Shown here in pieces: positions 5,578-46,541 of a stretch of DNA of 64,000 bases (positions are counted from its first letter, which is position 1; the number at the start of each line of letters is the position of its first letter). Origin of the DNA: Tetraselmis striata (Eukaryota; Chlorophyta; Chlorodendrophyceae; Chlorodendrales; Chlorodendraceae). The DNA lies in the NCBI GenBank assembly GCA_006384855.1, contig VCJN01002774.1, forward strand, positions 1 through 64,000. The letters run 5' to 3'. The position numbers and the translations under genes are program-made. The notes under the pieces are model-generated. The model saw only the letters and a program-made list of their open reading frames with translations. It was not told the DNA's origin and did not search any database.

Positions 5578-6950
5578 AGGAGGATCACGCTACCAGTACC
5601 AGTAGCCGCGCTGGTTCGCCCGGGTTTTAGTACATACGTAGTACTTCGCCCGGTGTTAAGGGCCGGCTGGAAAGTGAGAAGTTTGCGCCTGCCACCTTCG
5701 CCGGAGCAGTGGACGACCGCTATGGTGCTGCTGGCCACTCGTCGACCGCGCGTAGAGGGGATAACACTAGCGTTACCAATATCGCAGCACTGATCTCCAG
5801 GCAGCCCGCAACTACGGCTACCCAGCCAGGCAACTACCTACCTAGATCCCGCCTATCACATCCCACTCATCGGACGCAACGTGGTGCTCTTGCCGCTGAC
5901 GCTGGACCGCGTAGCGGGCATCCACTTCGTTGTGCAGTACTTAGTGTTTCGTGCAGTGCTTCGTGCTTCATACAGCTGCAGCATATCGTCACATGTAGGG
6001 CGACTTCTCCGCCTGGCGAGAACGACGCGGATCTACGACACCGCGCTCGTGGATCCTATGGGCGACCGCTACGACGACCCTTGCGCCTGTTGCGCAGATC
6101 TTCGTGGCCAATCCGATGCACCGACGACGACGGCGACGAGGCCAGCCAGTGCGGTGGCTAGGCGCGCAAGAACACCAAGTTCCGCGCCGCGCCCGGCGGC
6201 TGCTACTGCCGTTGCATCATCGGCGAGCGCAGTGGCGACCGCAAGGAGGGCGAGTGCAGCATCCGGATCAGCAGCATGCCTACGGGCAGCCCAGCTACGG
6301 GCAGCCTGTGTATGAGCTACATGGGCTCCCCCAACTGCGTTGGTTATTTGCCTTTTGGCATGGAAGCGCGCGTGCGCGATGGGGCCAGCGTCGGCGAGGC
6401 AGCGCTACTACTGGGCGCCGGCAACTAAGCTACGTGCAGCCCGCCCCGTGCTCCCCCAGCTGCGTTGGCTATCCTACCATCAGCTTGTGCTCAGCGGCCC
6501 CGCCGCTCGCAGAGAGGGTGCCAGAGAGCATCTTGCGCAGCGTACTGCCCGGCATCGCCCATGGCACGAAGATGACGCGCTCGCGTCCTCATCACCAGTC
6601 AGCTACGAGCAGCCCGCGCCTATGAGCAGCGCAGCTATGAGCGGCCTGCGTATGAGCTGCCTGGGTTTCCCCGACTGCGTTGGCTATCTGCCCTTTGGCA
6701 TGGAGGCGTGCATGCGCTATGGGGCTAGCGTCGCCGGCGAGGCAGCAAATCTGACGGACTCCGCTACTACGACGGCGGCCAAGCAGCCAGTCATAGGTGG
6801 CACGAGGACGAGTCGCACAAGAGCAGATGTAGGGTGGTCGCTACAATACAAATGCCAGGGATTACTTTGTACCAAATTCCCACTGATGTTCCGATTGCAC
6901 GCCGCATGGGGGCATTGAACTGCATACCCCCGTGTATGATTGAGGGGGGC
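5578..6950. other. Interior of LTR-like element, no intact gene; internal duplications
   Basis: No supported full gene. A ~110-bp block is present twice (about 6305-6410 and 6615-6745); both copies can be read on the plus strand as CVGYLPFGMEA followed by GASV and GEAA, and a shorter third match (CAGCTGCGTTGGCTATCC) lies near 6458. The repeated peptide suggests an old repetitive protein, but neither copy sits in a long frame. Confidence 0.45.
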
Positions 6951-7202
6951 TGTTGGGATCTGGCTGATACCCTAGCACCGTCCGATACCCTAGCATAGCC
7001 CGGACACATGGTCACGCGCCTTTCCATGCGCGCACCTATCTCCCGGCCCAGCGTGTGCCTATATCCCGGCCCGCCGGGGCGGCGCTCTGTTTCCACCCTC
7101 TTCCTCCCCACAGTCCCCGCAACTCGAGCCCGGCTCCTTGCTCCCACTGTATGATGCTCCGAGCACTTCCACTCACCATCACCTCCGCGGTTGAGCCGTT
7201 TA
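6951..7202 (+). repeat. Right LTR-like direct repeat
   Basis: Partner of 1601-1853. The polypurine-like GAGGGGGGC lies directly upstream, as expected for a 3' LTR of a plus-oriented element. Confidence 0.8.
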
Positions 7203-7260
7203 ATATGCTGTTTTCATCTTCCATCTACTTCGCGCTCCATCTACCACGTGGCGGGCCTCG
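7203..7260 (+). repeat. Left terminal repeat of the DIRS-like element, 3' part
   Basis: CATCTTCCATCT..TCGCGC, CTACCA and TGGCGGGCC line up with 47652-47697, continuing the match interrupted at 1600 by the LTR-like insertion. Confidence 0.55.
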
Positions 7261-7399
7261 TCGATGCTCGTGGGTTCGTTCCGTGCAAGACGCCTTGGTT
7301 TTCCTGCACGCCCGCGACCCGTGTGTGAAGACCCGCCGTCCTACTCATACTCCGAGCGCCGGCGCCGACTTCTTGAGTGCGAATAGCCGACTTATGTGT

Positions 7400-7883
7400 G
7401 CCTGTTGGCAGATGTCAACTTTAAATAATCTCTTCGCAAGGCGAGCGCTAAGACAATGCGCCCCCTCTTCTCCTCGAGGCCTCCATCCCGAGCGCGCATG
7501 TTGCGCGGGTTGGTGGTACAAGTGGCCCCATCTATACTTGCCCTCGCCTTCACGGCACGCTCCATCTTGGCGCTGACTGCTCGGCGCCTAAACCTAGCTG
7601 GCCGATTGAAACTCCTACCCCGGAACTAGCAGCAATTCCATATCCGGCCGGCGGTGGCCGATTCGACTACCGTGACCCAACGAGCTACTCCGACTGGTCT
7701 GCTACTCCTGCCTCGACGCGCGACGGGTACGCGGCCTAGGCAGTTGATGTCGCCCCCGAGCGAGGAAGAACACCTACGCGCCAAGCGCACAGCCATACGA
7801 ACCCCGGCTCGCGTGCCGACTAGTAGTGCACTCCCGACTTTGACTACATGGGTGCGGGGTGCTGGCGCAACTGGCAGGCCTAG
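7400..7883 (+). pseudogene. N-terminal pol/gag region of the DIRS-like element with TAG stops
   Basis: The reading frame of the downstream reverse transcriptase extends upstream through coding-like sequence (SGPIYTCPRLHGTLHLGADC, then APKPSWPIETPTPELAAIPY, then GGGRFDYRDPTSYSDWS) and is broken only by TAG codons near 7737, 7829-7834 and 7881. Each lies in an NCTAGN context (CCTAGG, ACTAGT, CCTAGG). The N-terminal boundary is not clear. This looks like the leader of the same polyprotein, degraded by point mutation. Confidence 0.4.
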
Positions 7884-8640
7884 GTGGGCATCGGCGTCGA
7901 CATGCTCTGCAACGGCGTGCGCATCCCGTTCAATAAGAACGGGCCGCCCGCCCCCTTTCACAAAGGAGTCTCAATGGAGAAGCCAACCCCCGACCAGCTA
8001 CGCGTAATGTACGGCGAACTTGCTCGTTTCCTGGCTAGCATAGCGTGTGAGGAAGGCCACTGCTCGCGGGGGGTCTCTCGGCTGTTCGTCGTCCCTATGC
8101 CGGGTAACAACAAGTGGCCGCTCATCATCGACCTAAGACCCGCCCTCAACCGGTACTGCGAGGAGCAGGATTTTAGTTCCGAGACCCTCACTAGATTGCG
8201 CCATCTAACCCAATCGGGTGACTACATGCTCTCCATTGACCTACATGACAGCTCCTACGCCGTCGGCAATATTGCCCTTGAGGACCGCAATTATTTTACC
8301 GTCGACTACCGAGGCAAGCTCTACCGGCTGGCGGGGCTCCCCATGGGCTGGAGACTGAGTCCCAATTACTTTTGCTCTCTCACTGCGGCGTTCAACCGCC
8401 ATCTGTGGCGCCTCGATTTCGCAGTAACCTTACAAGGGGTACATCCCACCAAGCTCAGCATGGGGCGACGTAAGGCGATACCTGACGCTGCCACTTCCAT
8501 GGCTGCCGCATGCTCCCCTACATGGACAACTTCATGTTCTTTGCGCCCAGCCGGGCGCAAGCCTACACTGTGCGCGACCGTCTCCACAACATTTCCCGCG
8601 GTAACCCGTACGACATTTCGCGATCCGAATACGGTACGAA
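7884..8640 (+). pseudogene. Reverse transcriptase fragment, DIRS/Ngaro-like pol (most complete copy)
   Basis: Only this copy has the N-terminal RT segment. SRLFVVPMPGNNKWPLIIDL is the fingers motif, MLSIDLHDSSYAV carries the motif A aspartate, and LAGLPMGWRLSPNYF is motif B. The frame is lost after about 8420. Motif C reappears in another frame at 8510 as LPYMDNFMFFAPSR, so the catalytic YMDD reads YMDN and the second aspartate is gone. The enzyme would have copied element RNA into DNA for reintegration. The LPMGW..SPNYF and YMD-FMFFA style is typical of DIRS/Ngaro elements (family knowledge). Frameshift plus active-site change make this certainly non-functional. Sequence beyond about 8640 no longer looks like RT. 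Confidence 0.85.
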
Positions 8641-12010: not shown

Positions 12011-12107
12011 ACCTTTCCTCACCTCTAGCACTCACTCTCACCCACGAGTGCTCTTCCCCTTTGTCTGAACGCGAACCTACGTCACTACAGGCACCTCTCA
12101 GACGCCT

Positions 12108-32074: not shown

Positions 32075-32077
32075 ACA
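32075..32077. repeat. Target site duplication ACA, left
   Basis: ACA lies directly before the CACTGTGAG terminus; the partner ACA is at 46539-46541. Confidence 0.8.
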
Positions 32078-32778
32078 CACTGTGAGATTCAGATGTGACA
32101 TACGGGTGACGAAGCACTACTACTAGCGACTATTATTTATCCGTGAAGGCTGCTGCTGGTGGCGGCACGTCCATCCAGTTACGTGCGAGTACATCCGGCG
32201 TTATTGCCGGCGGGCGATAAATCCTTTTTGTCATCATTCTGGTAGTCGTACTAGCCCGGTGAATTGTTACATGGCACTGACGTATAAGGTACAAGGTTGT
32301 CCGTGTAGTACCGGGTAGTACGCGATATATTTATTAAGCCGGTACCGGGTATCTAGTACGAACCCGGGCGCGATGACGAGTCGTCATGTGGATAACTACG
32401 ACTATTAGTACATGGGAGCGCAAATCGCAGCCGTACGTATTTGGTAACACTGGGAAATTTTGTGTACATTATAGCTAGTATTGCTGAACGGGCCTGCCAG
32501 CCGTCCGATCAAAGGTCATCAGATGGGCGGTTTGGCTGCCATGTTTTGCCAAAGAGTGCTCACGTTACATAAATATTCGCGAGGGGGAGGGCGGGGGCAG
32601 GCAGCGGTTTGCCGAAGAATGTTTGAATTACAATATTCGCGACAGCTGCCGTCGGGGCATGTGGCGGGGGGGGGGGGGGGGGGGGGCGGGCGGGCGTGGT
32701 CCCCCCCCCCCCCCCCCCCCCCTCGCCGCCCGCCGCTCCCGCCGGGGGAGTGAGGGGAGGGGGGTAAGGGGGCGGGGG

Positions 32779-32991
32779 CTACTGCTTGTTCTTGTTCTTG
32801 CGTGCCCGGGGGACCCTCCGCTTCGACGATCTCGCTGCCTCCGCCTCCGCCGCCTCCGCCTCCGACTCCGCCTCCGAATCCGCGACCGTCAGTTTCTTAC
32901 CTCGGCGCTTCTTCACTGGCCTCTTCCGCTTCTTGTCATCCGTCAGTGTCTTCACCACCCCGGGAGGCTGTGCCGTCGACGACGCCGCCAT
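32779..32991 (-). CDS. Basic/acidic C-terminal ORF of outer CACTA element
   Basis: ATG at 32991 (MAASSTAQPPGVVKTLTDDK) followed by KKRKRPVKKRRGKK, an acidic SEAESEAEAAEAEA stretch and a KNKNKQ-stop tail (TAG). It is conserved with the inner element (38418-38645), where only the acidic repeat length and a few residues differ, so it is under coding-like conservation. In both copies the frame is also open upstream of the ATG (RPDAKVR-LMAASS), so this may be the last exon of a longer minus-strand gene, possibly the transposase gene. The KKRKRP and KKRRGKK clusters look like nuclear localisation signals. Confidence 0.5.
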   Translation of the reverse strand: MAASSTAQPPGVVKTLTDDKKRKRPVKKRRGKKLTVADSEAESEAEAAEAEAARSSKRRVPRARKNKNKQ

Positions 32992-32999
32992 GAGCTGCC

Positions 33000-34159
33000 T
33001 TACCTTGGCGTCGGGACGCCCCCTGCCTGTGCCGAGACGCCCACAACAAGCCACAATCGTTTCGCCTTTAAGCGGCTGAGGATGCGGCCTCCTCGGCCAC
33101 CACGAGTTGCGCCGCTGGCACTGTGGAAGCCTTGGCGTTGAGGTGGGCCTTAACGGCGCTCCCGGACGAACCTGCGCGCGGCACAAGTTAGCCACGAGTG
33201 GGTGCGTGCTAATGTGGAGGGTGGAGTGTTTTGTTGCGCGCCGTTCTTGTCACGCGTTTCCTCATGTCTTTCTCGTCCTCCTCGATGCCGGCGGCGCGGA
33301 CACGCGAGACAACAAGGCTCGCCGCCCACTTTTGCCCGGGGGGCGAGGTCTGCCATGGCGCTGTGAGCGGTGAAGGGGCCGAGGGGGGGGGGGGGGGGGC
33401 GGCCGAGGTGGAGAAACTAACACCCAGTCGACGACCGCCTTCCGCAGCAGTCAACGACACATCGGAGGCGAGGAGCAGCGCGCCACTACTATTTATATGC
33501 ACGTATTGTCAAGAGCTAGTCGGTGCGGCATTGTGTCGGTGTAATTTCGCAACGTTTATTGTTGAAGTAGCACGGCGTAATGAATACGCGGTTTCACCGA
33601 GTGAATCCGGGATAATATGTGCGGTAGGGCGCGCGTATATGTGCGCGACGAAAGTGCGCGCGCAGCGTTGTGCGGCGGTGTGCGGCGGTGTGCGGCGGTG
33701 TGCACCGATGTTAATATAGTGTGAATATTATATCGGCCGTAGACGATCGGGTCTGGCAACACCGCCCGTGCTTGTAAATAAGCGACAATGGATCACGTCA
33801 TGCTCCGCCGGTTGTACTCCTACACTTCCTCCACTTTGGCGGGTGGGGGGGGGGGCGGGGGGGGGGGGGGGGGGTCCTGTCCTTATTACTTGCATCGGTG
33901 GACGTGTTGGATATGGAGGTCACCGGGCACATCGCGTGGTTTCGGAGCAGTTCATTCGCGCCTCCTCGTCTTGTTTGCGATCGTCGCCCTAATCCAATGC
34001 AGGGTGAGTAGCGGGACACTGTGCCCCCCCCGGGTTTATGTAAACAAATATCTAGCCGTGCATGCGCCGCAATCGGTACCCAATGAGAGGGGTATGTGAC
34101 AGTGGTTTCGGAGCAGTGCAAGCATTCCGTGCGTGTGCACAAGCACGTATGACTGGGAA
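33000..34159. other. Outer CACTA interior, no gene; G-runs
   Basis: No supported ORF. Poly-G tracts lie near 33385-33400 and 33845-33873, and a GTGTGCGGCG tandem lies near 33670-33705. The corresponding inner-element region is 38700-39440. Confidence 0.5.
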
Positions 34160-34860
34160 TGAGGCGGGGGTTGCGGATGGAGTGCATTGGCGGTGCATAG
34201 AATAGCGTGTTCCTGGGGTTTTGGCTGCATCAGACGCCGTATTCCCACCCATCCGGCACGGAATGTCCGGTTTTCACACATTTGTGTGTTAATAAAGTGT
34301 GAATATTACGCGTCTTTTACGCCGGGTGGATGGGCATCCGGCGTCCGATGCACCCCAAGTATTTACAGCACGCTACTCTACGCACCGCCAATGCACTCCG
34401 CAAGCCCCGCCTCCATCCGCGTCGGAACCGGTAGTAAGTGTTGTTGTGTGCGCACATCGTGACAACATTACACGGTGGCAATTGCAATTAGCGGTGGATA
34501 ATGTGAAGGCGTTTTCGAAATCGACAGAGAATGAGGCGGTGCTGGCGGAGTGCATTGGCGGTGCATAGAATAGCGTGTTGCTGGGGTTTTGGCTGCATCG
34601 GACGCCGTATTCCCACCCATCCGGCACGGAATGTCCGGTTTTCACACATTTGTGTGTTAATATAGTGTGAATATTACGTACGCGCCGTTTACGCTGGGTG
34701 GATGGGCATCCGGCGTCCGATGCACCCCGAATCTCACCAACACGCTACTCTACGCACCCCCAACGCACTCCGCCAGCCCCGCCTCTTTCCGCGCAGGTCC
34801 TACGTTCCATTGTATGCATATACATACGTACATGTACTGCTCCGAAACCAGCCCAAACTT
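34160..34860. repeat. Tandem ~370-bp palindromic repeats, outer element (two copies)
   Basis: Starts at GAATGAGGCGG and repeats at about 34529. Within a unit, GGAGTGCATTGGCGGTGCATAG and TTTTGGCTGCATCGGACGCC recur as inverted copies (CTACGCACCCCCAACGCACTCC and GGCGTCCGATGCACCCC), so each unit folds back on itself. Confidence 0.8.
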
Positions 34861-35020
34861 AATGAGTGCACAAGTGTAAATGGGGGGGGGGGGGGGGGGT
34901 GGGGGGGGGTGGGGGGGGGGGGGGGGATGTGGCGGCGGGGCATCCACTCACACATACCCCGGCGATGCATGACAGATATTACATGCCGTGGCGGGTCGGC
35001 GGGCCGACCCGGCGGGGGGT

Positions 35021-35058
<38 letters not shown>
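35021..35058 (+). repeat. Poly-G run of 38
   Basis: The longest pure homopolymer in the window. Nearby are G-runs at 34881-34925 and the complementary C-run at 35510-35537. Confidence 0.9.
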
Positions 35059-35059
<1 letters not shown>

Positions 35060-35616
35060 CTATTCAACTACACGTAAGTGCCACAGTGTCGTTTCGTGGA
35101 GCAGTATATGTGCCCGGCCTCATTTATTCCGCCCCCTACCTGCGATGCATGGTCCACCCCTACGAATTACTTAGCACAAACCACCATTACTTAATAGGAA
35201 CCTAGCACAGCCAGGCTTATATGCCCGCTTTGCCGATCAAATTCTACGCACTTTCCGTCCCTCAACCGCCGGACATGGGGGTTAAGCCGCCAGCCTCGGC
35301 AGTTGCTTAGCCAGACTTGGCATCCCGTACCGTGTCCATGGCTTCGCAGCTCTGCCGCCGGCACACGCCGAGTCCGGGGCTTGCTGCCGCGGGGTTGCGC
35401 ACGCATGCACGCACGGTAATATGCCGCCGACGCCGCCACGCTTACTTCCACCACCTTCACCAGCCGCAGCTTCGCACGCCGTTCCGCCGACATACGAAAC
35501 GCACGAATCCCCCCCCCCCCCCCCCCCCCCCCCCCCCGTCCCCGCGTCATGTATTATGCGGGGCGCAGCACACGCCGCGGCGTGGGTCGGCGGAGCGGCA
35601 GGCGGCGGGAGCCCTA

Positions 35617-36397
35617 ATGGCCGGGCAGTATCGACACCCACACAGGCACCGCCGCTCACCTCCGACGCGGATGAACCGCCTCCCAAAGGAAACATGCCGG
35701 TTGGTGGTAAGCCCAGCAGGCGTGGGGTGCCGGCGCCGGTACTGGTGCGACGGAGCTGTCGCGTCAGGAACCGCACCGCATGTGGAGCAACACATGGCGG
35801 TGCCGGCCCCACCTATGCCTAGGGCCACCTCCTCACAACACCCCGCCACGACGGCGTCGGCCACCGCCGACGGCGCCGTTGCGGGGGGGGACGCCCTGCC
35901 AGGCGACGATGATGCGCCTGATGCGCCGCGTCAGGAGGCGGAGGAGGCCGTGGTCGAGGCGACTGATCGGGCTGAGGGGGTTGTTGAGGAAAGCGAGGCT
36001 GCGTTCGCGCCACCCGCCCCGCAGCCACCTGCGGGACATGCCGACTTGCTCGTCGCCATGTTGACCGGAGCACTACGAGCAGTGGCGGGAGGCGGCCACA
36101 TGCACTATCATGTGCGTGGACTGCGGCCAACGGACGGACTGGGAGTGTTGCTTCGACGGCACCCTGGCTTTGTGCGGCCCCAAGTACCCATGCATGGCGA
36201 CCCATCAGCGGGCAGTCCCCTGCCCGACCACGGCCACGGTGAGGGCGGAGTTCCGCCATGTCAGGGACGCGATCCACGACGCGACTCGCGCCGCCGTGTG
36301 TGAGGCTTCCGAGAAGGCACGCGCGGCTGGTGGGGTGCGCAGGGTGAGGCGGCGGACGGCCCAGGAGATGAAGGAGAGCGAGACATGCCGTCAGTGA
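35617..36397 (+). pseudogene. Zinc-cluster ORF of outer CACTA element (frameshifted)
   Basis: Homologous to the intact ORF at 41409-42215. The frame is open from ATG 35617 but a 26-bp deletion at about 36117, between two copies of CATG(T)GCGTG, shifts it; the original frame resumes as CVDCGQRTDWECC and ends at TGA 36397. The shifted frame runs on to 36303. The deletion looks like slippage between short direct repeats. Confidence 0.7.
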
Positions 36398-36438
36398 GGT
36401 CGGGCGCAATGTCATTGGGTGGGGCACACGGACGTGTA

Positions 36439-36735
36439 ACACTTGCACTTTGCGCGTACTGCTGGGTTACATCCAGGCGGTGTCACACTATGCAACCGGA
36501 AAGGCTGCGTTGCTACTGCAAACGATGCGACGCCTCACTCTGTAGCAACCGCTGCCCCGCCTATCCCACAGCCGCTGCCCCCCCCCCCCCCCCGCGGGAT
36601 CCCCGCCATCAGCAGCTTGCACTTGCACTTTGCGCGTACTGCTGGGTTACATCCAGGCGGCGTCACACCGGAAAGGCTGCGTTGCTACTGCAAACGATGC
36701 TACGCCTCACTCGGTAGCAACCGCTGCCCCGCTCA
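36439..36735 (+). repeat. Duplicated Cys-rich segment, outer element
   Basis: Two copies (about 36447-36565 and 36619-36735) of a block reading LCAYCWVTSRRCHT...RLRCYCKRCDAS on the plus strand. An 8-bp deletion in the second copy breaks its frame. See 42257-42571 for the inner version. Confidence 0.65.
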
Positions 36736-36745
36736 TCCCACTCGC

Positions 36746-36862
36746 GTTGGCGCCGCGCTGCCCCGGCCGCCGCGCCTTGCCGCCGCGCTGCCCCGGCCGC
36801 CGCGCCTTGGCGCCGCGCTGCCCCGGCCGCCGCGCCTTGGCGCCGCGCTGCCCCGGCCGCTG
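36746..36862 (+). repeat. 30-bp GC minisatellite, outer element (~4 units)
   Basis: Unit GGCGCCGCGCTGCCCCGGCC plus GCCGCGCCTT. The inner element has about 22 units of the same repeat at 43165-43819. Confidence 0.93.
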
Positions 36863-37155
36863 ACATAGCCCAGGACCACATGCACATGGCACACGCCATG
36901 GCAGCCAGTGTTGTGCTTGGCCTCCGCCAGCCGGGTTGTGTTGAACGCACGCCGGGCAAGGTGCGTGATTCACTGGACAAGTCATCGCCTTCATGGACGG
37001 TTACCAAGCGAGCATCCCCGTCCGCATCCACAGGGGGGTGCTCCTGGGCAGCCGCCATAGCCTCCACAACCTGCCACGCCGACCGGGCGGGTGCGTGTGA
37101 TTCCATACAACCGCAGTTGAATGGTGCCACCCGCACGCAGGCCGGGCCCACTCAC
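36863..37155 (-). other. Outer element transposase intron/exon remnant
   Basis: Matches 44428-44720 of the inner element, then jumps directly into the minisatellite at the point (GGGCTATGTCAG) where the inner copy continues into the transposase core. This marks the left edge of an internal deletion in the outer copy. Confidence 0.6.
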
Positions 37156-37686
37156 CTCTGAACGCAGAAGGTCCACAATGTCACCGTCCTCGAAAACAGC
37201 GCGCCACTGGGTCGCCCCGCCGTAGTCCTCCAACACCCACTCGGTAACGACGCCGGTTATCACGCCGTAGTGCCATACTCCCCGGAACTTCTTGGCGATG
37301 ACCTTCATGTAGAAGTCACCGGGATCGCCTTTCCGTATCACGCCCTCATCGGCAGCTTCCACGTCCGCCGGCGGCCACGCAGGCGCGTCGATGTCCATAC
37401 CGTCTTCGCCAACGGGGTCCTCCCCCACACCCATCACATCGTCCTCCGAGACTGGCGCCGGCGGGCCGTTTCCGACGGCTGCAGCTACTCCCGCTGCCGC
37501 CCCTGCCGCTGCTGCTGCTGCTGCTGCCGCCCTGCTGTTGCTGCTTGTAATAAGGCGGCCTTGCGGCGCAACTTAGCCGCACGCTTCAACGAGTGGCTAC
37601 AGTTCGGGTATTTCTGGAAGTGCCGCTCTCGCGCCGTCCTTTCACTACTGCCCGTCACGATGCCGTGGCAGTGCTTGCATGTGTAC
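37156..37686 (-). pseudogene. Outer CACTA transposase, first exon, part 2 (BED-like zinc finger and Tudor-like region)
   Basis: Begins at the insertion point with VYTCKHCHGIVTG and continues through RHFQKYPNCSHSLKRAAKLR (BED-like C-x2-C...H...C finger), a Gln/Ala-rich linker, and FYMKVIAKKFRGVWHYGVIT...VFEDGDIVDLL, a pattern resembling Tudor/Agenet-like beta-barrels. It ends at a perfect donor (GAG|GTGAGT, exon end 37156), phase 0. The frame is uninterrupted here, whereas the inner copy has a 1-bp deletion in the linker. Its first 15 codons lie 8.2 kb away at 45912-45955 because the inner element split the exon. The gene cannot make a full protein. Confidence 0.7.
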
Positions 37687-37689
37687 ACG
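37687..37689. repeat. Target site duplication ACG, left
   Basis: Precedes CACTGTGAG of the inner element; the partner ACG is at 45912-45914. The uninterrupted site is readable at about 45262-45284 in the inner element's own copy of the gene. Confidence 0.9.
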
Positions 37690-38417
37690 CACTGTGAGAT
37701 TCAGATGTGACATACAGGTGACGAAGCACTACTACTAGCGACTATTATTTATCCGTGAAGGCTGCTGCTGGTGGCGGCACGTCCATCCAGTTACGTGCGA
37801 GTACATCCGGCGTTATTGCCGGCGGGCGATAAATCCTTTTTGTCATCATTGAGGAAGTCGTACCAGCCCGGTGGAGCGTTACATGGCACTGACGTACAAG
37901 GTACAAGGTTGTCCGTGTAGTACCGGGTAGTACGCGATATATTTATTACGCCGGTACCGGGTATCGAGTACCCGGTACCCGGTACCCGGGCACGATGGAG
38001 AGTGGTCCTGTGGATAACTACGACTATTAGTACATGGGAGCGCAAATCTCAGCCGTACTATTCGGCCAAAGTGGGGATTTTTGTGTACATTATAGCTAGT
38101 ACTGCTGAACGGGCCTGCCAGCCGTCCGATCAAAGGTCATCAGATGGGCGGTTTGGCTGCCATGTTTTGCCAAAGAGTGCTCACGTTACATAAATATTCG
38201 CGAGGGGGAGGGCGGGGGCAGGCAGCGGTTTGCCGAAGAATGTTTGAATTACAATATTCGCGACAGCTGCCATCGGGGGATGTGGCCCGGGGGGGGGGGG
38301 GGGGGGGGGGGGTGTGGGGGCGGGGGGACCACGCCCGCCCCGCCCCCCCCGCCCCCCCTCGCCGCCAGCCGCTCCCGCCTGGGGGGGGGGGGGGGGGGGG
38401 GGGTAAGGGGGCGGGGG

Positions 38418-38645
38418 CTACTGCTTGTTCTTGTTCTTGCGTGCCCGCGGGACCCTCCGCTTCGACGATCTCGCTGCCTCCGCCTCCGCCTCCGCCTCCG
38501 CCTCCGCCTGCGCCTCCGACTCCGCCTCCGACTCCGCGACCGTCAGTTTCTTACCTCGGCGTTTCTTCACTGGCCTCTTCCGCTTCTTGTCATCCGTCAG
38601 TGTCTTCACCACCCCGGGAGGCTGTGCCGTCGACGACGCCGCCAT
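38418..38645 (-). CDS. Basic/acidic C-terminal ORF of inner CACTA element
   Basis: ATG at 38645. Same protein as 32779-32991 with a longer acidic repeat (SEAESEAQAEAEAEAEAEA) and the same NLS-like KKRKRPVKKRRGKK and KNKNKQ end. Conservation between two elements that differ freely in non-coding parts supports translation. The function is not recognised; CACTA elements usually make a second DNA-binding protein (TNPA-like), which would fit a small basic product, but that is inference. Confidence 0.5.
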   Translation of the reverse strand: MAASSTAQPPGVVKTLTDDKKRKRPVKKRRGKKLTVAESEAESEAQAEAEAEAEAEAARSSKRRVPRARKNKNKQ

Positions 38646-39439
38646 GAGCTTCCTTACCTTCGCGTCGGGACGCCCCCTGTGCCCAGACACCCACAACAAG
38701 CCACAATCGTTTCGCCTTTAAGCGGCTGAGGATGCGGCCTCCTCGGCCACCACGAGTTGCGCCGCTGGCACTGTGGAAGCCTTGGCGTTGAGGTGGGCCT
38801 TAACGGCGCTCCCGGACGAACCTGCGCGCGGCACAAGTTAGCCACGAGTGGGTGCGTGCTAATGTGGAGGATGGAGTGTTTTGTTGCGCGCCCACCTTGT
38901 CACGCGTTTCCTCATGTCTTTCTCGTCCTCCTCGATGCCGGCGGCGCGGACACGCGAGACAACAAGGCTCGCCGCCCACGTTTGCCCGGGGGGGCGAGGT
39001 CGGCCATGGCGCTGTGAGCGGTGAAGGGGGGGGGGGGCGGGGGGGGGGGGGGGGGGGGGCGGCCGAGGTGGAGAAACTAACACCCAGTCGACGACCGCCT
39101 TCCGCAGCAGTCAACGACACATCGGAGGCGAGGAGCAGCGCGCCACTACTATTTATATGCACGTATTGTCAAGAGCTAGTCGGTGCGGCATTGTGTCGGT
39201 GTAATTTCGCAATGTTTATTGTTGAAGTAGCACGGCGTAATGGATACGGCGAGTGAATCCGGGATAATGTGTGCGACGAATGTGCGCGCGCAGCGGTGTG
39301 CGGCGGTGTGCGGCGGTGTGCGGCGGTGTGCACCGATGTTAATTTAGTGTGAATATTACATCGGCCGTAGACGATCAGGTCTGGCAGCACCGCCCGTGCT
39401 TGTAAATAAGCGACAATGGATCTAGTCTCCCGCTAGTCT

Positions 39440-40640
39440 GTGCACCGCCAGTGCACTCCGCAAGCCTCGCCTCCATCCGCGTCGGAACCGGTAGTAAGTG
39501 TTGTTGTGTGCGCACATCGTGACAACATTACACGGTGGCAATTGCAATTATTAGCGGTGGATAATGTGAAGGCGTTTTCGAAATCGACAAAGAATGAGGC
39601 GGTGCTGGCGGAGTGCATTGGCGGTGCATAGAATAGCGTGTCCCTGGGGTTTTGGCTGCATCGGACGCCGTATTCCCACCCATCCGGCACGGAATGTCCG
39701 GTTTTTACACATTTGTGTGTTAATAAAGTGTGAATATTACGCGTCTTTTACGCCGGGTGGATGGGCATCCGGCGTCCGATGCACCCCAATTATTTGCAGC
39801 ACGCTACTCTACGCACCCCCAACGCACTCCGCAAGCCTCGCCTCCATCCGCGTCGGAACCGGTAGTAAGTGTTGTTGTGTGCGCACATCGTGACAACATA
39901 TTACACGGTGGCAATTGCAATTAGCGGTGGATAATGTGAAGGCGTTTTCGAAATCGACAGAGAATGAGGCGGTGCTGGCGGAGTGCATTGGCGGTGCATA
40001 GAATAGCGTGGTGCTGGGGTTTTGGCTGCATCGGACGCCGTATACCCACCCATCCGGCACGGAATGTCCGGTTTTCACACATTTGTGTGTTAATAAAGTG
40101 TGAATATTACGCGTCTTTTACGCCGGGTGGATGGGCATCCGGCGTCCGATGCACCCCAATTATTTGCAGCACGCTACTCTACGCACCCCCAACGCACTCC
40201 GCAAGCCTCGCCTCCATCCGCGTCGGAACCGGTAGTAAGTGTTGTTGTGTGCGCACATCGTGACAACATTACACGGTGGCAATTGCAATTAGCGGTGGAT
40301 AATGTGAAGGCGTTTTCGAAATCGACAGAGAATGAGGCGGTGCTGGCGGAGTGCATTGGCGGTGCATAGAATAGCGTGTCTCTGGGGTTTTGGCTGCATC
40401 GGACGCCGTATTCCCACCCATCCGGCACGGTATGTCCGGTTTTCACACATTTGCGTGTGAATATATATAGTGTGAATATTACGTACGCGTCTTTTACGCT
40501 GGGTGGATGGGCATCCGGCGTCCGATGCACCCCGAATCTCACCAACACGCTACTCTACGCACCCCCAACGCACTCCGCCAGCCCCGCCTCTTTCCGCGCA
40601 GGTCCTACGTTCCATTGTATGTATATACATACGTACATGT
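39440..40640. repeat. Tandem ~370-bp palindromic repeats, inner element (three-plus copies)
   Basis: GAATGAGGCGGTGCTGGCGG occurs at about 39594, 39964 and 40333, giving a ~370-bp period, preceded by a half unit at 39440 and followed by a diverged half ending near 40640. Units share inverted arms as in the outer element. Subterminal repeats of this kind are where CACTA accessory proteins bind in plants (family knowledge). Confidence 0.8.
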
Positions 40641-40830
40641 ACTGCTCCGAAACCAGCCCAAACTTAATGAGTGCACAAGTGTAAATGGGGGGGGGGGGGG
40701 GGGGGGGTGGGGGGGGGGTGTGTGGCGGCGGGGCATCCACTCACACATACCCCGGCGATGCATGACAGATATTACATGCCGTGGCGGGTCGGCGGGCCGA
40801 CCCGGCGGGCCGACCCGGCGGGGGGGGGGG

Positions 40831-40852
40831 GGGGGGGGGGGGCGTCTATTCA
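40831..40852 (+). repeat. Poly-G run, inner element
   Basis: Lies at the position equivalent to the 38-base G-run of the outer element (35021-35058), but shorter and preceded by a duplicated GGGCCGACCCGGC. Confidence 0.8.
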
Positions 40853-41408
40853 ACTACACGTGCGACAGTGTCGTTTCGTGGAGCAGTATATGTGCCCGGC
40901 CTCATTTATACCGCCCCCTACCTGCGCTGCATGGTCCACCCCTACGAATTACTTAGCACAAACCGCCATTACTTAATAGGAACCTAGCACAGCCAGGCTT
41001 ATATGCCCGCTTTGCCGATCAACTTCTACGCACTTTCCGTCCCTTAACCGCCGGACATGGGGGTTAAGCCGCCAGCCTCGGCAGTTGCTTAGCCAAACTT
41101 GGCATCCCGTACCGTGTCCATGGCTTCGCAGCTCTGCCGCCGGCACACGCCGAGTCCGGCGCTTGCTGCCGCGGGGTTGCGCACGCATGCACGCACGGTA
41201 ATACGCCGCCGACGCCGCCACGCTTATTTCCACCACCTTCGCCAGCCGCAGCTTCGCACGCCTTTCCGCCGACATACGAAACGCACGAATCCCCCCCCCC
41301 CCCCCCCCCCCCGTCCCCGCGTCATGTATATTATATTCGAGGCGACTATGCGGGGCGCAGCACACGCCGCGGCTTGGGTCGGCGGAGCGGCAGGCGGCGG
41401 GAGCCCTA

Positions 41409-42215
41409 ATGGCCGGGCAGTATTCACACCCACACAGGCACCGCCGCTCACCTCCGACGCGGATGAACCGCCTCCCAAAGGAAACATGCCGGTTGGTGGT
41501 AATCCCAGCAGGCGTGGGGTGCCGGCGCCGGTACTGGTGCGACGGAGCTGTCGCGTCAGGAACCGCACCGCATGTGGAGCAACACATGGCGGTGCCGGCC
41601 CCACCTATGTCTAGGGCCACCTCCTCACAACACCCCGCCACGACGGCGTCGGCCACCGCCGACGGCGCCGTTGCGGGGGGGGACGCCCTGCCAGGCGACG
41701 ATGATGCGCCTGGTGCGCCGCGTCAGGAGGCGGAGGAGGTCGTGGTCGAGGCGACTGATCGGGCTGAGGGGGTTGTCGAGGCGAGCGAGGCTGCGCTCGC
41801 GCCACCCGCCCCGCAGCCACCTGCGGGACATGCCGACTTGCTCGTCGCCATGTTGACCGGAGCACTACGAGCAGTGGCGGGAGGCGGCCACATGCACTAT
41901 CATGTGCGTGTCCTGGCCGGACGCCCGTCATGCGTGGACTGCGGCCAACGGACGGACTGGGAGTGTTGCTGCGACGGCACCCCGGCTTTGTGCGGCCCCA
42001 AGTACCCATGCATGGCGACCCATCAGCGGGCAGTCCTCTGCCCGACCACGGCCACGGTGAGGGCGGAGTTCCGCCATGTCAGGGACGCGTTCCACGACGC
42101 GACTCGCGCCGCCGTGTGTGAGGCTTCCGAGAAGGCACGCGCGGCTGGTAGGGTGCGCAGGGTGAGGCGGCGGACGGCCCAGGAGCTGAAGGAGAGCGAG
42201 ACATGCCGTCAGTGA
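41409..42215 (+). CDS. Zinc-cluster protein of inner CACTA element (268 aa, intact)
   Basis: ATG at 41409, TGA at 42213-42215. The N-terminal ~110 residues are Arg/Pro-rich. From about residue 112 an acidic, Ala-rich region (GDALPGDDDAPGAPRQEAEE) leads to AGHADLLVAMLTGALRAVAG and then a Cys/His cluster: HYHVRVLAGRPSCVDCGQRT followed by DWECCCDGTPALCGPKYPCM and ATHQ (C-x2-C ... C ... LC ... C ... H). This spacing resembles the C-terminal zinc-binding domain of PiggyBac-type transposases and RING/PHD-like clusters. It ends in an Arg/Lys-rich tail. It lies on the strand opposite the transposase exons. A DNA-binding accessory role is inference. The outer copy is frameshifted. Confidence 0.55.
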   Translation: MAGQYSHPHRHRRSPPTRMNRLPKETCRLVVIPAGVGCRRRYWCDGAVASGTAPHVEQHMAVPAPPMSRATSSQHPATTASATADGAVAGGDALPGDDDAPGAPRQEAEEVVVEATDRAEGVVEASEAALAPPAPQPPAGHADLLVAMLTGALRAVAGGGHMHYHVRVLAGRPSCVDCGQRTDWECCCDGTPALCGPKYPCMATHQRAVLCPTTATVRAEFRHVRDAFHDATRAAVCEASEKARAAGRVRRVRRRTAQELKESETCRQ

Positions 42216-42256
42216 GGTCGGGCGCAATGTCATTGGGTGGGGCACACGGACGTGTA

Positions 42257-42571
42257 ACACTTGCACTTTGCGCGTACTGCTGGGTTACATCCAAGCGGTG
42301 TCACACTATGCAACCGGAAAGGCTGCGTTGCTACTGCAAACGATGCTACGCCTCACTCGGTAGCAACCGCTGCCCCGCCTATCCCACAGCCGCTGCCCCC
42401 CCCCCCCCCCCCCCCCCCGCGCGCGGGATCCCCGCCATCAGCAGCTTGCACTTGCACTTTGCGCGTACTGCTGGGTTACATCCAGGCGGCGTCACACCGG
42501 AAAGGCTGCGTTGCTACTGCAAACGATGCTACGCCTCACTCGGTAGCAACCGCTGCCCCGCCCATCCCACT
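42257..42571 (+). repeat. Duplicated Cys-rich segment, inner element
   Basis: Two ~120-bp copies separated by a C-run of about 21. The first reads CAYCWVTSKRCHTMQPERLR then CYCKRCYASLGSNRCPAYPT (C-x2-C, H, C-x-C-x2-C). The second has lost 8 bp between CACAC and CGGAAAGG and is out of frame. This could be a zinc-finger exon with a decayed duplicate. No start or splice sites are assigned. Confidence 0.55.
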
Positions 42572-42579
42572 CGGGATGC

Positions 42580-43160
42580 TGAGAGCAGCTAAAGGGCACC
42601 GGGGGCGGGGCAAGAGGGAGCAGGGCCAATGATTGTGGAAGAGCGGGGACCCGCTTGCATGCCATCGTATTATATCTTGCACAATATCTGTTGCTGCACT
42701 CATATCTCACATCACTAGCTTAGCTATAGTGATTCCCCCCCCCCCCCCCCCCCCCGCACCGCGGACGCACAAGCCTGGGTATACGCATCAACTGCCCGCC
42801 GGGATGAGAAACTGGTATTGGTAGTGTGTCTGTGGGGTGGAGGGGGGGCAAAAGAGCTGCCAATTGCTGCCAAGCTGGTGCGTTACATTGGGGCAGGCGC
42901 TGGGCAGACAATTGGGGCTCGCTTCAGAGCATTGTCTAGTGCCTATGCGGCTCTGCCGCCTCCGCCGCATGCAGACTCTCCGGGCTCACCAGCACCGCCA
43001 CCTCAGTCATGCGGCCCTGCATCCCGCAGCCCGCCGCCGCCAGCCAGATCAGAGGTATCCAGAAGCCAGTGCTGGGGTTGTTGCGGCATGACCGCATAGT
43101 TTTCAGCGCCTGCCGTCCACAACTTGTAATGCATCCCTTTCCGCCGATTCCGCTGTATGC
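42580..43160. other. Inner-element segment absent from the outer copy, no gene
   Basis: Contains a C-run near 42737-42755. In minus orientation a short coding-like patch (GMHYKLWTAGAENYAVMPQQ) lies next to the minisatellite and may be transposase C-terminus. Nothing else recognised. Confidence 0.4.
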
Positions 43161-43164
43161 GTTG

Positions 43165-43819
43165 CCTTGGCGCCGCGCTGCCCCGGCCGCCGCGCCTTGG
43201 CGCCGTGCTGCCCCGGCCGCCGCGCCTTGGCGCCGCGCTGCCCCGGCCGCCGCGCCTTGGCGCCGCGCTGCCCCGGCCGCCGCGCCTTGGCGCCGCGCTG
43301 CCCCGGCCGCCGCGCCTTGGCGCCGCGCTGCCCCGGCCGCCGCGCCTTGGCGCCGCGCTGCCCCGGCCGCCGCGCCTTGGCGCCCGGCCGCGCTTGCCCC
43401 GGCCGCCGCCGCGCCTTGGCGCCGCGCTGCCCCGGCCGCCGCGCCTTGGCGCCGCGCTGCCCCGGCCGCCGCGCCTTGGCGCCGCGCTGCCCCGGCCGCC
43501 GCGCCTTGGCGCCGCGCTGCCCCGGCCGCCGCGCCTTGGCGCCGCGCTGCCCCGGCCGCCGCGCCTTGGCGCCGCGCTGCCCCGGCCGCCGCGCCTTGGC
43601 GCCGCGCTGCCCCGGCCGCCGCGCCTTGGCGCCGCGCTGCCCCGGCCGCCGCGCCTTGGCGCCGCGCTGCCCCGGCCGCCGCGCCTTGGCGCCGCGCTGC
43701 CCCGGCCGCCGCGCCTTGGCGCCGCGCTGCCCCGGCCGCCGCGCCTTGGCGCCGCGCTGCCCCGGCCGCCGCGCCTTGGCGCCGCGCTGCCCCGGCCGCC
43801 GCGCCTTGGCGCCGCGCTG
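43165..43819 (+). repeat. 30-bp GC minisatellite, inner element (~22 units)
   Basis: Near-identical 30-bp units with one rearranged unit at about 43381-43411. On the minus strand it stays in frame with the transposase exon and would encode ~22 repeats of a ten-residue Ala/Arg/Gln/Gly unit (ARRQGAAAGA). Both strands are open over hundreds of codons simply because the unit has no stop in any frame. Confidence 0.97.
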
Positions 43820-44129
43820 GGTATCGAGTCCTCCCCTCCCTAGTGAGCGCGTCCACCTGCGCCTTGCGCTCGGGGCCGTCCTCCTCCGTCACCACATTCT
43901 GCAACCCCCACCGCGTGACGAACCACGCAGCTCCTTGCAGGCGCTTGTACATGTGCCCAAGCACCGCCAGTCGTGACACCGAACGCACCACCGCTGGGGA
44001 CGCGAGCTCCTTCTCGGGCATGATCGCCTTCACCCGGGCCTCCTCGAGGAGCGGACCGGCGTTAAGAATGGAAAACGTTTCCATGTGGTGCAAGCAGTCC
44101 TCCATGACCCAGCCGGGCTGCACCGTCAC
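43820..44129 (-). CDS. Inner CACTA transposase, C-terminal exon before the minisatellite
   Basis: After an intron of about 91 bp (44220-44130, acceptor ...GGCAAG|GTGACG, phase 0) the frame reads VTVQPGWVMEDCLHHMETFS, then EEARVKAIMPEKELASPAVV, KRLQGAAWFVTRWGLQNVVT and EEDGPERKAQVDALTREG, continuing without a stop into the minisatellite. Composition is convincingly coding (Trp, Met, His, no low complexity). It is absent from the outer element. Confidence 0.6.
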
Positions 44130-44220
44130 CTTGCCTGACCCTGCAGTCATGGAGGGGAATGCCGTCACGCCCACGCCCACGCCCACGCCCGGGGGGGGGG
44201 GGCGGGGGGGAGGGGTTTAC

Positions 44221-44535
44221 CTTTCGATTCTTGGACACTGCAAACGAAGGGCGCAACCCGCGTTCAAAGTTGCTGGGTATCGGGACTAAAGCCTGGCGCC
44301 GGTCTTCCTGCTTCATAGCTCGGAATCCAATGTGGCCCTGCACGGTGACAATTTTCCTCCAGAAGTCCCTTCCCAAGCCAAAAAAAAACAGGTGGAACGG
44401 CGCGAGGGGGAAGAGGTTGACCATGCTGACATAGCCCCGGACCACATGCACATGGCACACGCCATGGCAGCCAGTGTTCTGCTTGGCCTCCGCCAGCCGG
44501 GTTGTGTTGACCGCACGCCGGGCAAGGTGCGTGAT
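44221..44535 (-). CDS. Inner CACTA transposase, TNP2-like core exon
   Basis: The frame is open below the TGA at 44536-44538 and ends at donor AAAG|GTAAAC (44221), phase 0. It reads NTGCHGVCHVHVVRGYVSMV then NLFPLAPFHLFFFGLGRDFW, followed by VTVQGHIGFRAMKQEDRRQA and PIPSNFERGLRPSFAVSKNR. The HGxCxL...F...P..P.H...LGL.RDFW layout matches the region of CACTA (TNP2/Transposase_21-type) transposases where G-x-x-G is followed by a P..xMH..xLG+ segment (family knowledge). This agrees with the CACTG ends and 3-bp TSD. The 5' edge of the exon is uncertain; AAGCAG|AACACT near 44488 is one possible acceptor. Confidence 0.6.
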
Positions 44536-44721
44536 TCACTGGACAAGTCATCGCCTTCATGGACGGTTACCAAGCGAGCCTCCCCGTCCGCATCCACAGG
44601 GGGGTGCTCCTGGGCAGCCGCCATAGCCTCCACAACCTGCCACGCCGACCGGGCGGGTGCGTGTGATTCCATACAACCGCAGTTGAGTGGTGCCACCAGC
44701 ACGCAGGCCGGGCCCACTCAC

Positions 44722-45314
44722 CTCTGAACGCAGAAGGCCCACAATGCCCCCGTCCTCGAAAACAGCGCGCCACTGGGTCGCTCCGCCGTAGTCCTCCAAC
44801 ACCCACTCGGTAACGACGCCGGTTATCACGCCGTAGTGCCATACCCCCCGGAACTTCTTGGCGATGACCTTCATGTAGAAGTCGCCGGAATCGCCTTTCC
44901 ATATCACGCCCTCATCGCGGGTTCCACGCCCGCCGGCGGCCACGCAGGCGCGTCGATGTCCATACCGTCTTCGCCAACGGGGTCCTCCCCCACGCCCATC
45001 ACATCGTCCACCTTCGAGCCGCCGTCGTCCGAGACCGGCGCAGGCGGGCCGTTTCCGACGGCTGCAGCTACTCCTGCTGCCGCCCCTGTTGTTGTTGCTG
45101 CTGCTGCTGCCGCCCCTGCTGCTGCTGCTTGTGATAAGGCGGCCTTGCGGCGCAACTTAGCCGCACGCTTCAACGAGTGGCTACAGTTCGGGAATTTTAG
45201 GAAGTGCCGCTCTCGCGCCATCTTATCACAAGTGCCCGTCACGTTGCCCCGGCAGTGCTTGCATGAGTACACGCCATCCTTCGACACACTCGCTATCCAT
45301 CCCTTTCCCGGCAT
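44722..45314 (-). pseudogene. Inner CACTA transposase, first exon (BED-like finger, Tudor-like region, 1-bp frameshift)
   Basis: ATG at 45314: MPGKGWIASVSKDGVYSCKH, then CRGNVTG and RERHFLKFPNCSHSLKRAAK form a BED-like zinc finger (about residues 14-47), the usual N-terminal DNA-binding module of many transposases. A Gln/Ala/Thr-rich linker follows, then GVGEDPVGEDGMDIDAPAWP. Near 44922 one base is missing relative to the outer copy, so the frame is lost just before FYMKVIAKKFRGVWHYGVIT...VFEDG. The exon would end at GAG|GTGAGT (44722). ATG choice is supported by the identical start in the outer copy (45955). Confidence 0.7.
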
Positions 45315-45911
45315 GCCTGCTGCCGCGCGCGAGGGGCGGGGGGGGTTGAGAGTTGGGGTGGATGTAACCCACCACCGGCAGGCAACACAGATGCGAGTGC
45401 GCGGCTGTCCGCGCTTGATTCAACGGTGAGCGGCGGTGACCGTGAGGCGACCCCATACTTCATGCGCGTGCTGGGGCGTTACACAATCATCAGCAATTAG
45501 GGCGGCTGCATTAAAACGCGCACCTACGAACACCACCTACCGCCTACCACCTACCGTACCACCTACATCCGCCCACACCTCCGCCCGTCGTGCCGCACAT
45601 CGCGGCACACCGCGGGGTCAGCGGTCAGCGATGTGCGGTCAGCGATGTGCGGCGATGTGCAATGAGTGCGTACATCCGCCTGTACTTAGCCCGGGTGCTC
45701 CGCGTCGGCGGGCGACACGCGAGCCCGCGTGCGCATATCAATTTGATGAAATTATGGAAACGAGAAATTCATATAGTACTTTACAGGTCGCGCGCGATAG
45801 TCGTCGCTACTGGGTATGAAATCCACGTCCCTCGTCCGTCCCGTATCGTCCCCGTATGTCGTCGTTCGTCACCAGTAGGGCACATTTACGTCACATCTGA
45901 ATCTCACAGTG

Positions 45912-45914
45912 ACG
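45912..45914. repeat. Target site duplication ACG, right
   Basis: Follows ...CTCACAGTG of the inner element. Confidence 0.9.
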
Positions 45915-45955
45915 CCATTCTTCGACACACTCGACATCCATCCCTCTCCCGGCAT
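45912..45955 (-). pseudogene. Outer CACTA transposase, first exon, part 1 (start codon side)
   Basis: ATG at 45955 begins MPGEGWMSSVSKNGV, homologous to the inner copy's MPGKGWIASVSKDGV. The inner transposon was inserted right after the Gly-Val codons; the rest of the exon is at 37686. Confidence 0.85.
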
Positions 45956-45959
45956 GCCT

Positions 45960-46538
45960 GCTGCCGCGCGCGCGCGGGGGGGGGGGGGGGGGGTTGAGAG
46001 TTGGGGTGGATGTAGCCCACCACCGGCAGGGAGCACAAATGCGAGTGCGCGGCTGTCCGCGCTTGGTTCAGCGGTGAGCGGCGGTGACCGCCAGGCGACC
46101 CTGTACTTCATGCGCCTGCTGGGGCGTTACACAATCATCAGCAGTTAGGGCGGCTGCATTAAAACGCGCACCTACGAACACCACCTACCGCCTACCACCT
46201 ACCGTACCACCTACATCCGCCCACACCTCCGCCCGTCGTGCCGCACATCGCCGCACACCGCGGGGTCAGCGATGTGCAGCGATGTGCAGCGAGTACGTGC
46301 AGCCGCCTGTACTTAGCCCGGGTACTCCGCGTCGGCGGGCGACACGCGAGCCCGCGTGCGCATATCAATTTGATGAAATTATGGAAACGAGAAATTCATA
46401 TAGTACTTTACAGGTCGCGCGCGATAGTCGTCGCTACTCGGTATGAAATCCACGTCCCTCGTCCGTCCCGTATCGTCCCCGTATGTCGTCGTTCGTCACC
46501 AGTAGGGCACACTTGCGTCACATCTGAATCTCACAGTG
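45960..46538 (-). promoter_or_regulatory. Outer transposase upstream region and right terminus
   Basis: Non-coding sequence between the transposase ATG and the element end, about 90% like 45320-45911 of the inner copy. It contains runs of ACCTACCGCCTACCACC and CGATGTGC(A/G)GCGATGTGC direct repeats that probably hold the promoter. No specific TATA element is assigned. Confidence 0.4.
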
Positions 46539-46541
46539 ACA
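46539..46541. repeat. Target site duplication ACA, right
   Basis: Follows ...CTCACAGTG of the outer element. Confidence 0.8.

Follow-up and report, generated by a model that had tools for sequence, protein, structure and literature searches.

The window, i.e., the whole analysed stretch of 64,000 nucleotides at the start of contig VCJN01002774.1 of the green alga Tetraselmis striata, contains two elements with the same terminus, one of which is nested within the other in the assembly. The outer element (32078-46538) is split by the inner element (37690-45911; 8,222 bp), and the two have the same orientation, with the gene whose exon is interrupted lying on the minus strand. The plus-strand termini start at 32078 and 37690 and the minus-strand termini end at 45911 and 46538, exactly where the first-pass annotation had placed them. 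That annotation had also given the common terminus as 20 bp; it is indeed shared, and the perfect terminal inverted repeat, which begins with CACTG, measures 22 bp (outer element, 32078-32099 on the plus and 46517-46538 on the minus strand; inner element, 37690-37711 and 45890-45911, respectively). Reading of the flanks revealed an exact 3-bp target duplication around each element, as had been proposed: ACA for the outer (32075-32077 and 46539-46541) and ACG for the inner (37687-37689 and 45912-45914). In addition, subterminal words of 8-10 bases occur 3-4 times near the element ends, as counted without a shuffled control.

The outer and inner elements align with each other throughout, except for the number of tandem repeats and two stretches that are missing from the outer copy. 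The inner element contains a 337-codon open frame on the plus strand (41202-42212), a 30-bp tandem repeat of approximately 22 copies (43164-43819), and a tandem repeat with a period of 370 and approximately three copies (39431-40598). The 30-bp repeat of the outer element has approximately four copies (36743-36860), and the copy number of the period-370 repeat also differs between the two elements. On the minus strand, an exon that starts with MPGKGWIASVSKDG and holds a Cys/His pattern is present in both. Its first 61 codons are uninterrupted in the inner element (45132-45314), while in the outer element the exon is broken into an upstream part (45912-45955) and a downstream part reaching to approximately codon 61 (37548-37689), each of which includes one copy of the ACG duplication.

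The empty sites of both insertions can be read directly. For the inner element, the joined flanks (37660-37689 and 45915-45960) were aligned to the inner element's own copy of the exon, a comparison that the first-pass annotation had suggested, and 68 of the 76 positions matched without a gap at the joint; this copy thus serves as the uninterrupted target, as had been anticipated. The same exon was uninterrupted in all of the 28 other copies fetched from the genome. The sequence of the coding strand here is GGC-GT | CGT-GTAC, which puts the break within the Gly14-Val15 pair, where the duplicated CGT comprises the last base of Gly and two bases of Val; the break is thus slightly upstream of the junction between the Gly-Val and Tyr codons at which it had been placed earlier. 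For the outer element, the flanking sequence on the right belongs to a dispersed repeat. When this flank was searched in the genome (40 matches scored among 1,035 first-look candidates), 39 matches with 85-88% identity and one short match with 70% identity were found besides the window itself. Three of these relatives were taken as loci (L038-L040), and all three are continuous through the insertion point, showing a single ACC at the position where the window has ACA twice. The order of events is also plain: nesting makes the outer element older than the inner one, and the divergence among copies gives the same order, which upholds the earlier statement that the age order is fixed.

The two elements belong to a large family. 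A search of the genome (224,097,584 bases in 2,903 contigs) with the 20-bp terminus, allowing up to two mismatches, detected 2,337 occurrences (1,224 and 1,113 on the two strands), whereas the reversed terminus used as a control had no occurrence in the same genome. Half of the total corresponds to approximately 1,170 elements, which at approximately 8 kb each would amount by arithmetic to approximately 4% of the genome. For comparison, 28 copies (L009-L036) were fetched from among the first 100 places listed; each is bounded by two exact termini that face each other at a distance of 6 to 9 kb, with unpaired or more distant termini set aside. All of them align to the inner element, spanning 5,878-8,222 of its 8,222 bases. 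An exact 3-bp duplication was found in 17 of the 28 copies and a longer one in none. Together with the window pair, exact duplications flank 19 of 30 copies, compared with 0.47 expected by chance (p ~2e-27). The first-pass annotation had asked for such a tabulation and held that its reading would fall if most copies lacked a duplication; the majority of these 30 copies has one. The duplicated triplets are varied and have no fixed motif. The remaining 11 fetched copies (L012, L014, L016, L020, L021, L022, L024, L026, L027, L028, and L036) have perfect ends without a 3-bp duplication, possibly as a result of recombination between copies or of misjoined repeats; in L022 and L028, two of the three flanking bases match.

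At the positions alignable to the inner element, the median pairwise identity among the 30 copies is 98.18% (range 96.24-99.5%). The nearest relative of the inner element among the fetched copies is L015 (99.5% over 6,443 positions), and the outer element and L022 are the two most isolated of the 30 copies, with 98.04% identity to each other. Because approximately 1,170 young copies occupy approximately 4% of the genome, nesting of one family member within another is expected without any insertion preference. The nesting is thus well preserved yet ordinary for an abundant young family.

The first-pass annotation had further stated that the inner element knocked out the outer one, which appears doubtful since the outer copy has also lost two stretches of the same gene region. 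One is equivalent to inner positions 43800-44424 (625 bp), present in 27 of the 28 other copies, and the other to 42574-43163 (590 bp), present in 23 of the 28; they flank the 30-bp tandem repeat, one on each side. Internal losses of this type are usual in CACTA families. The outer copy may therefore have been defective before the inner insertion.

Taken together, the observations are very probably explained by a CACTA/EnSpm-type class II family of approximately 1,170 copies that has spread recently, an older copy of which hit a repeat and later received a younger copy. The older copy went into a different dispersed repeat, with duplication of ACA. It was itself entered afterwards, in the first exon of its minus-strand gene and in the same orientation, by a copy from a younger subgroup, with duplication of ACG. 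The termini, the two duplications, the two empty sites, and the sequence of these events are read directly from the DNA. A putative DDE transposase, supplied by the same family or a relative, would have acted on the 22-bp ends and inserted them at a target site opened by cuts staggered by 3 bp.

The struck exon had been described as the first exon of the outer element's transposase gene. Its interruption is clear, but its identity as transposase is unproven because none of the 20 frames chosen from the inner element showed such a domain: taken as unspliced frames, they matched no Pfam family at E-values up to 1. The Cys-rich exon had no significant match in Pfam or PDB (best E-values 0.067 and 0.27, respectively), and the 337-codon frame had none in Pfam and none of significance in PDB (best E-value 0.42). 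Genome scans for Transposase_21 and Plavaka also gave no match, which does not prove their absence because the control genomes were equally silent. Three resemblances proposed by eye, namely the Cys-rich exon as a BED finger, the Cys cluster of the plus-strand frame as piggyBac-like, and one minus-strand frame as a CACTA-like core, were supported by no tool.

These results leave some room for a second explanation, in which the 8-kb copies are non-autonomous passengers of a transposase made elsewhere and the struck exon lies outside any transposase gene. Besides the lack of a known domain in the 20 frames, this explanation is favored by the coding constraint among the 30 copies, which is not clear: across 98 open windows no convincing sign was found, the best signal (p = 0.00055) lying inside the 30-bp repeat array and failing correction, and the next gene-like signal (p = 0.017) lying at 44712-44951. 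However, the family may be too young for such a test. In addition, the plus-strand frame has an internal stop in only six of 119 scored genomic copies (open in 113, the scoring being biased towards intact ones), and the minus-strand exon is common to all 28 fetched copies. Passenger status seems possible but less likely than not; it concerns the cargo of the elements and is compatible with the nesting.

Regarding the superfamily, it is the termini and the duplication length that would place the family in CACTA/EnSpm, since no transposase was identified in the frames tested. The usual target of PIF/Harbinger elements is TTA or TAA, and the duplications of hAT elements are 5-8 bp in length. The family has CAC..GTG ends in inverted repeats and 3-bp duplications of no fixed motif; TTA or TAA accounts for none of the 19 duplicated triplets, and no duplication longer than 3 bp was found in the 28 copies or in the window pair. 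Termini of the CAC..GTG type together with 3-bp duplications have been accepted as EnSpm for some fungal families, according to PMC12730594. The same paper notes that Harbinger elements likewise make 3-bp duplications, which, along with the missing CACTA-type transposase (20 frames, and genome scans with silent controls), would suit another superfamily with such duplications, either PIF/Harbinger or an undescribed lineage, that is CACTA-like only at its ends. Given the CAC..GTG ends and, for PIF/Harbinger, the lack of TTA or TAA triplets, this assignment is considered unlikely. As for an assembly artefact, in which repeat copies approximately 98% alike were misjoined into apparent nesting and which might also account for the 11 of 28 copies without matching flanks, it is hardly credible, because a misjoin would not restore continuous relatives with exact duplications, as the joined flanks of both window elements do each time.

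With a CACTA/EnSpm-type family as the preferred reading, several known systems provide a basis for comparison. Jordan of Volvox is a small element. According to PMC5093975, Jordan of Volvox carteri is a green-algal element likened to En/Spm and CACTA; it shares with the present family the character of an abundant green-algal DNA transposon, a likeness at the level of description. The plant CACTA/EnSpm elements presented in PMC8978399 resemble the algal family in their inverted repeats starting with CACT, 3-bp duplications, size near 8 kb, interior open frames, and possibly short repeats near the ends, but differ from it in that the algal frames tested include no recognisable DDE transposase. 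Plavaka and fungal EnSpm elements, as treated in PMC12730594, also have CA..TG ends and 2-3 bp duplications; the transposases they encode bear C(2)C and H(3-4)H motifs, whereas the scan of the algal host for Plavaka gave no match, with controls silent too. A literature search with the letters of the terminus returned no paper, a result that extends to that search and not to the printed record at large. Base-exact ends, duplications, and empty sites are now provided for a large and young CACTA-type transposon family of a green alga.

The interrupted exon is also a site of unusual variation. Its 100-bp window has a diversity of 6.3%, approximately four times the usual level (most windows 0.3 to 3%); diversity also peaks in the subterminal part of the left end and in a stretch rich in G. 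Two main alleles of the Cys-rich segment could be distinguished, as exemplified by L016 and L009, which differ in 11 codons of the stretch 15-42; in 10 of these the encoded amino acid is different. The inner and outer elements carry opposite alleles. Genome-wide, with up to one mismatch, the core of one type occurred 592 times and that of the second type 401 times. Among the first 100 listed of 976 exact cassettes, 52 were GSSERT, 35 were GTCDKM, and 13 were others, which include possible intermediates such as GTSDKT. Among the fetched copies (L009-L036), the alleles of the segment (45132-45314 in the inner element) sit on otherwise similar backgrounds.

Positive selection on this finger segment was considered and is not supported, because the ratio of changing to silent variable sites is statistically indistinguishable from that in the rest of the exon (codons 15-42, 10:4; codons 43-140, 11:6; Fisher p = 1, with codons 1-14, at 5:0, excluded). 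Coevolution of the segment with the variable left end was likewise rejected, the linkage being low (mean r2 0.16-0.17, with one site up to 0.59). A more elaborate model, in which a transposase of an undescribed lineage drives this CACTA-ended family and two strains, differing most in a transferred Cys-rich finger segment, compete in binding specificity, is very unlikely. If the Cys-rich segment does bind DNA, its two alleles would allow a test of how a transposon family shifts its binding specificity.

Elsewhere in the window, a tandem array with units of approximately 4.01 kb extends from approximately 7884 to 31000, stopping a short distance ahead of the outer element. Copies of a 272-codon frame lie at 12069, 16082, 20102, 24114, and 28125, with a related frame at 7884. 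By eye, one frame of the array resembles a DIRS-type reverse transcriptase, and a frame on the other strand appears methyltransferase-like. Two of the array frames were searched against Pfam without a match. Separately, the Rubisco small subunit has one match in the genome, and its best PDB match is 7jfo, an entry from Chlamydomonas, which points to a green alga as the probable host. This Rubisco small-subunit frame, on the minus strand of L041 (1315-2031), continues beyond the Rubisco match into a repeat tail rich in Pro, Gly, and Tyr, which reflects either a genuine fusion or an intron that escaped recognition.
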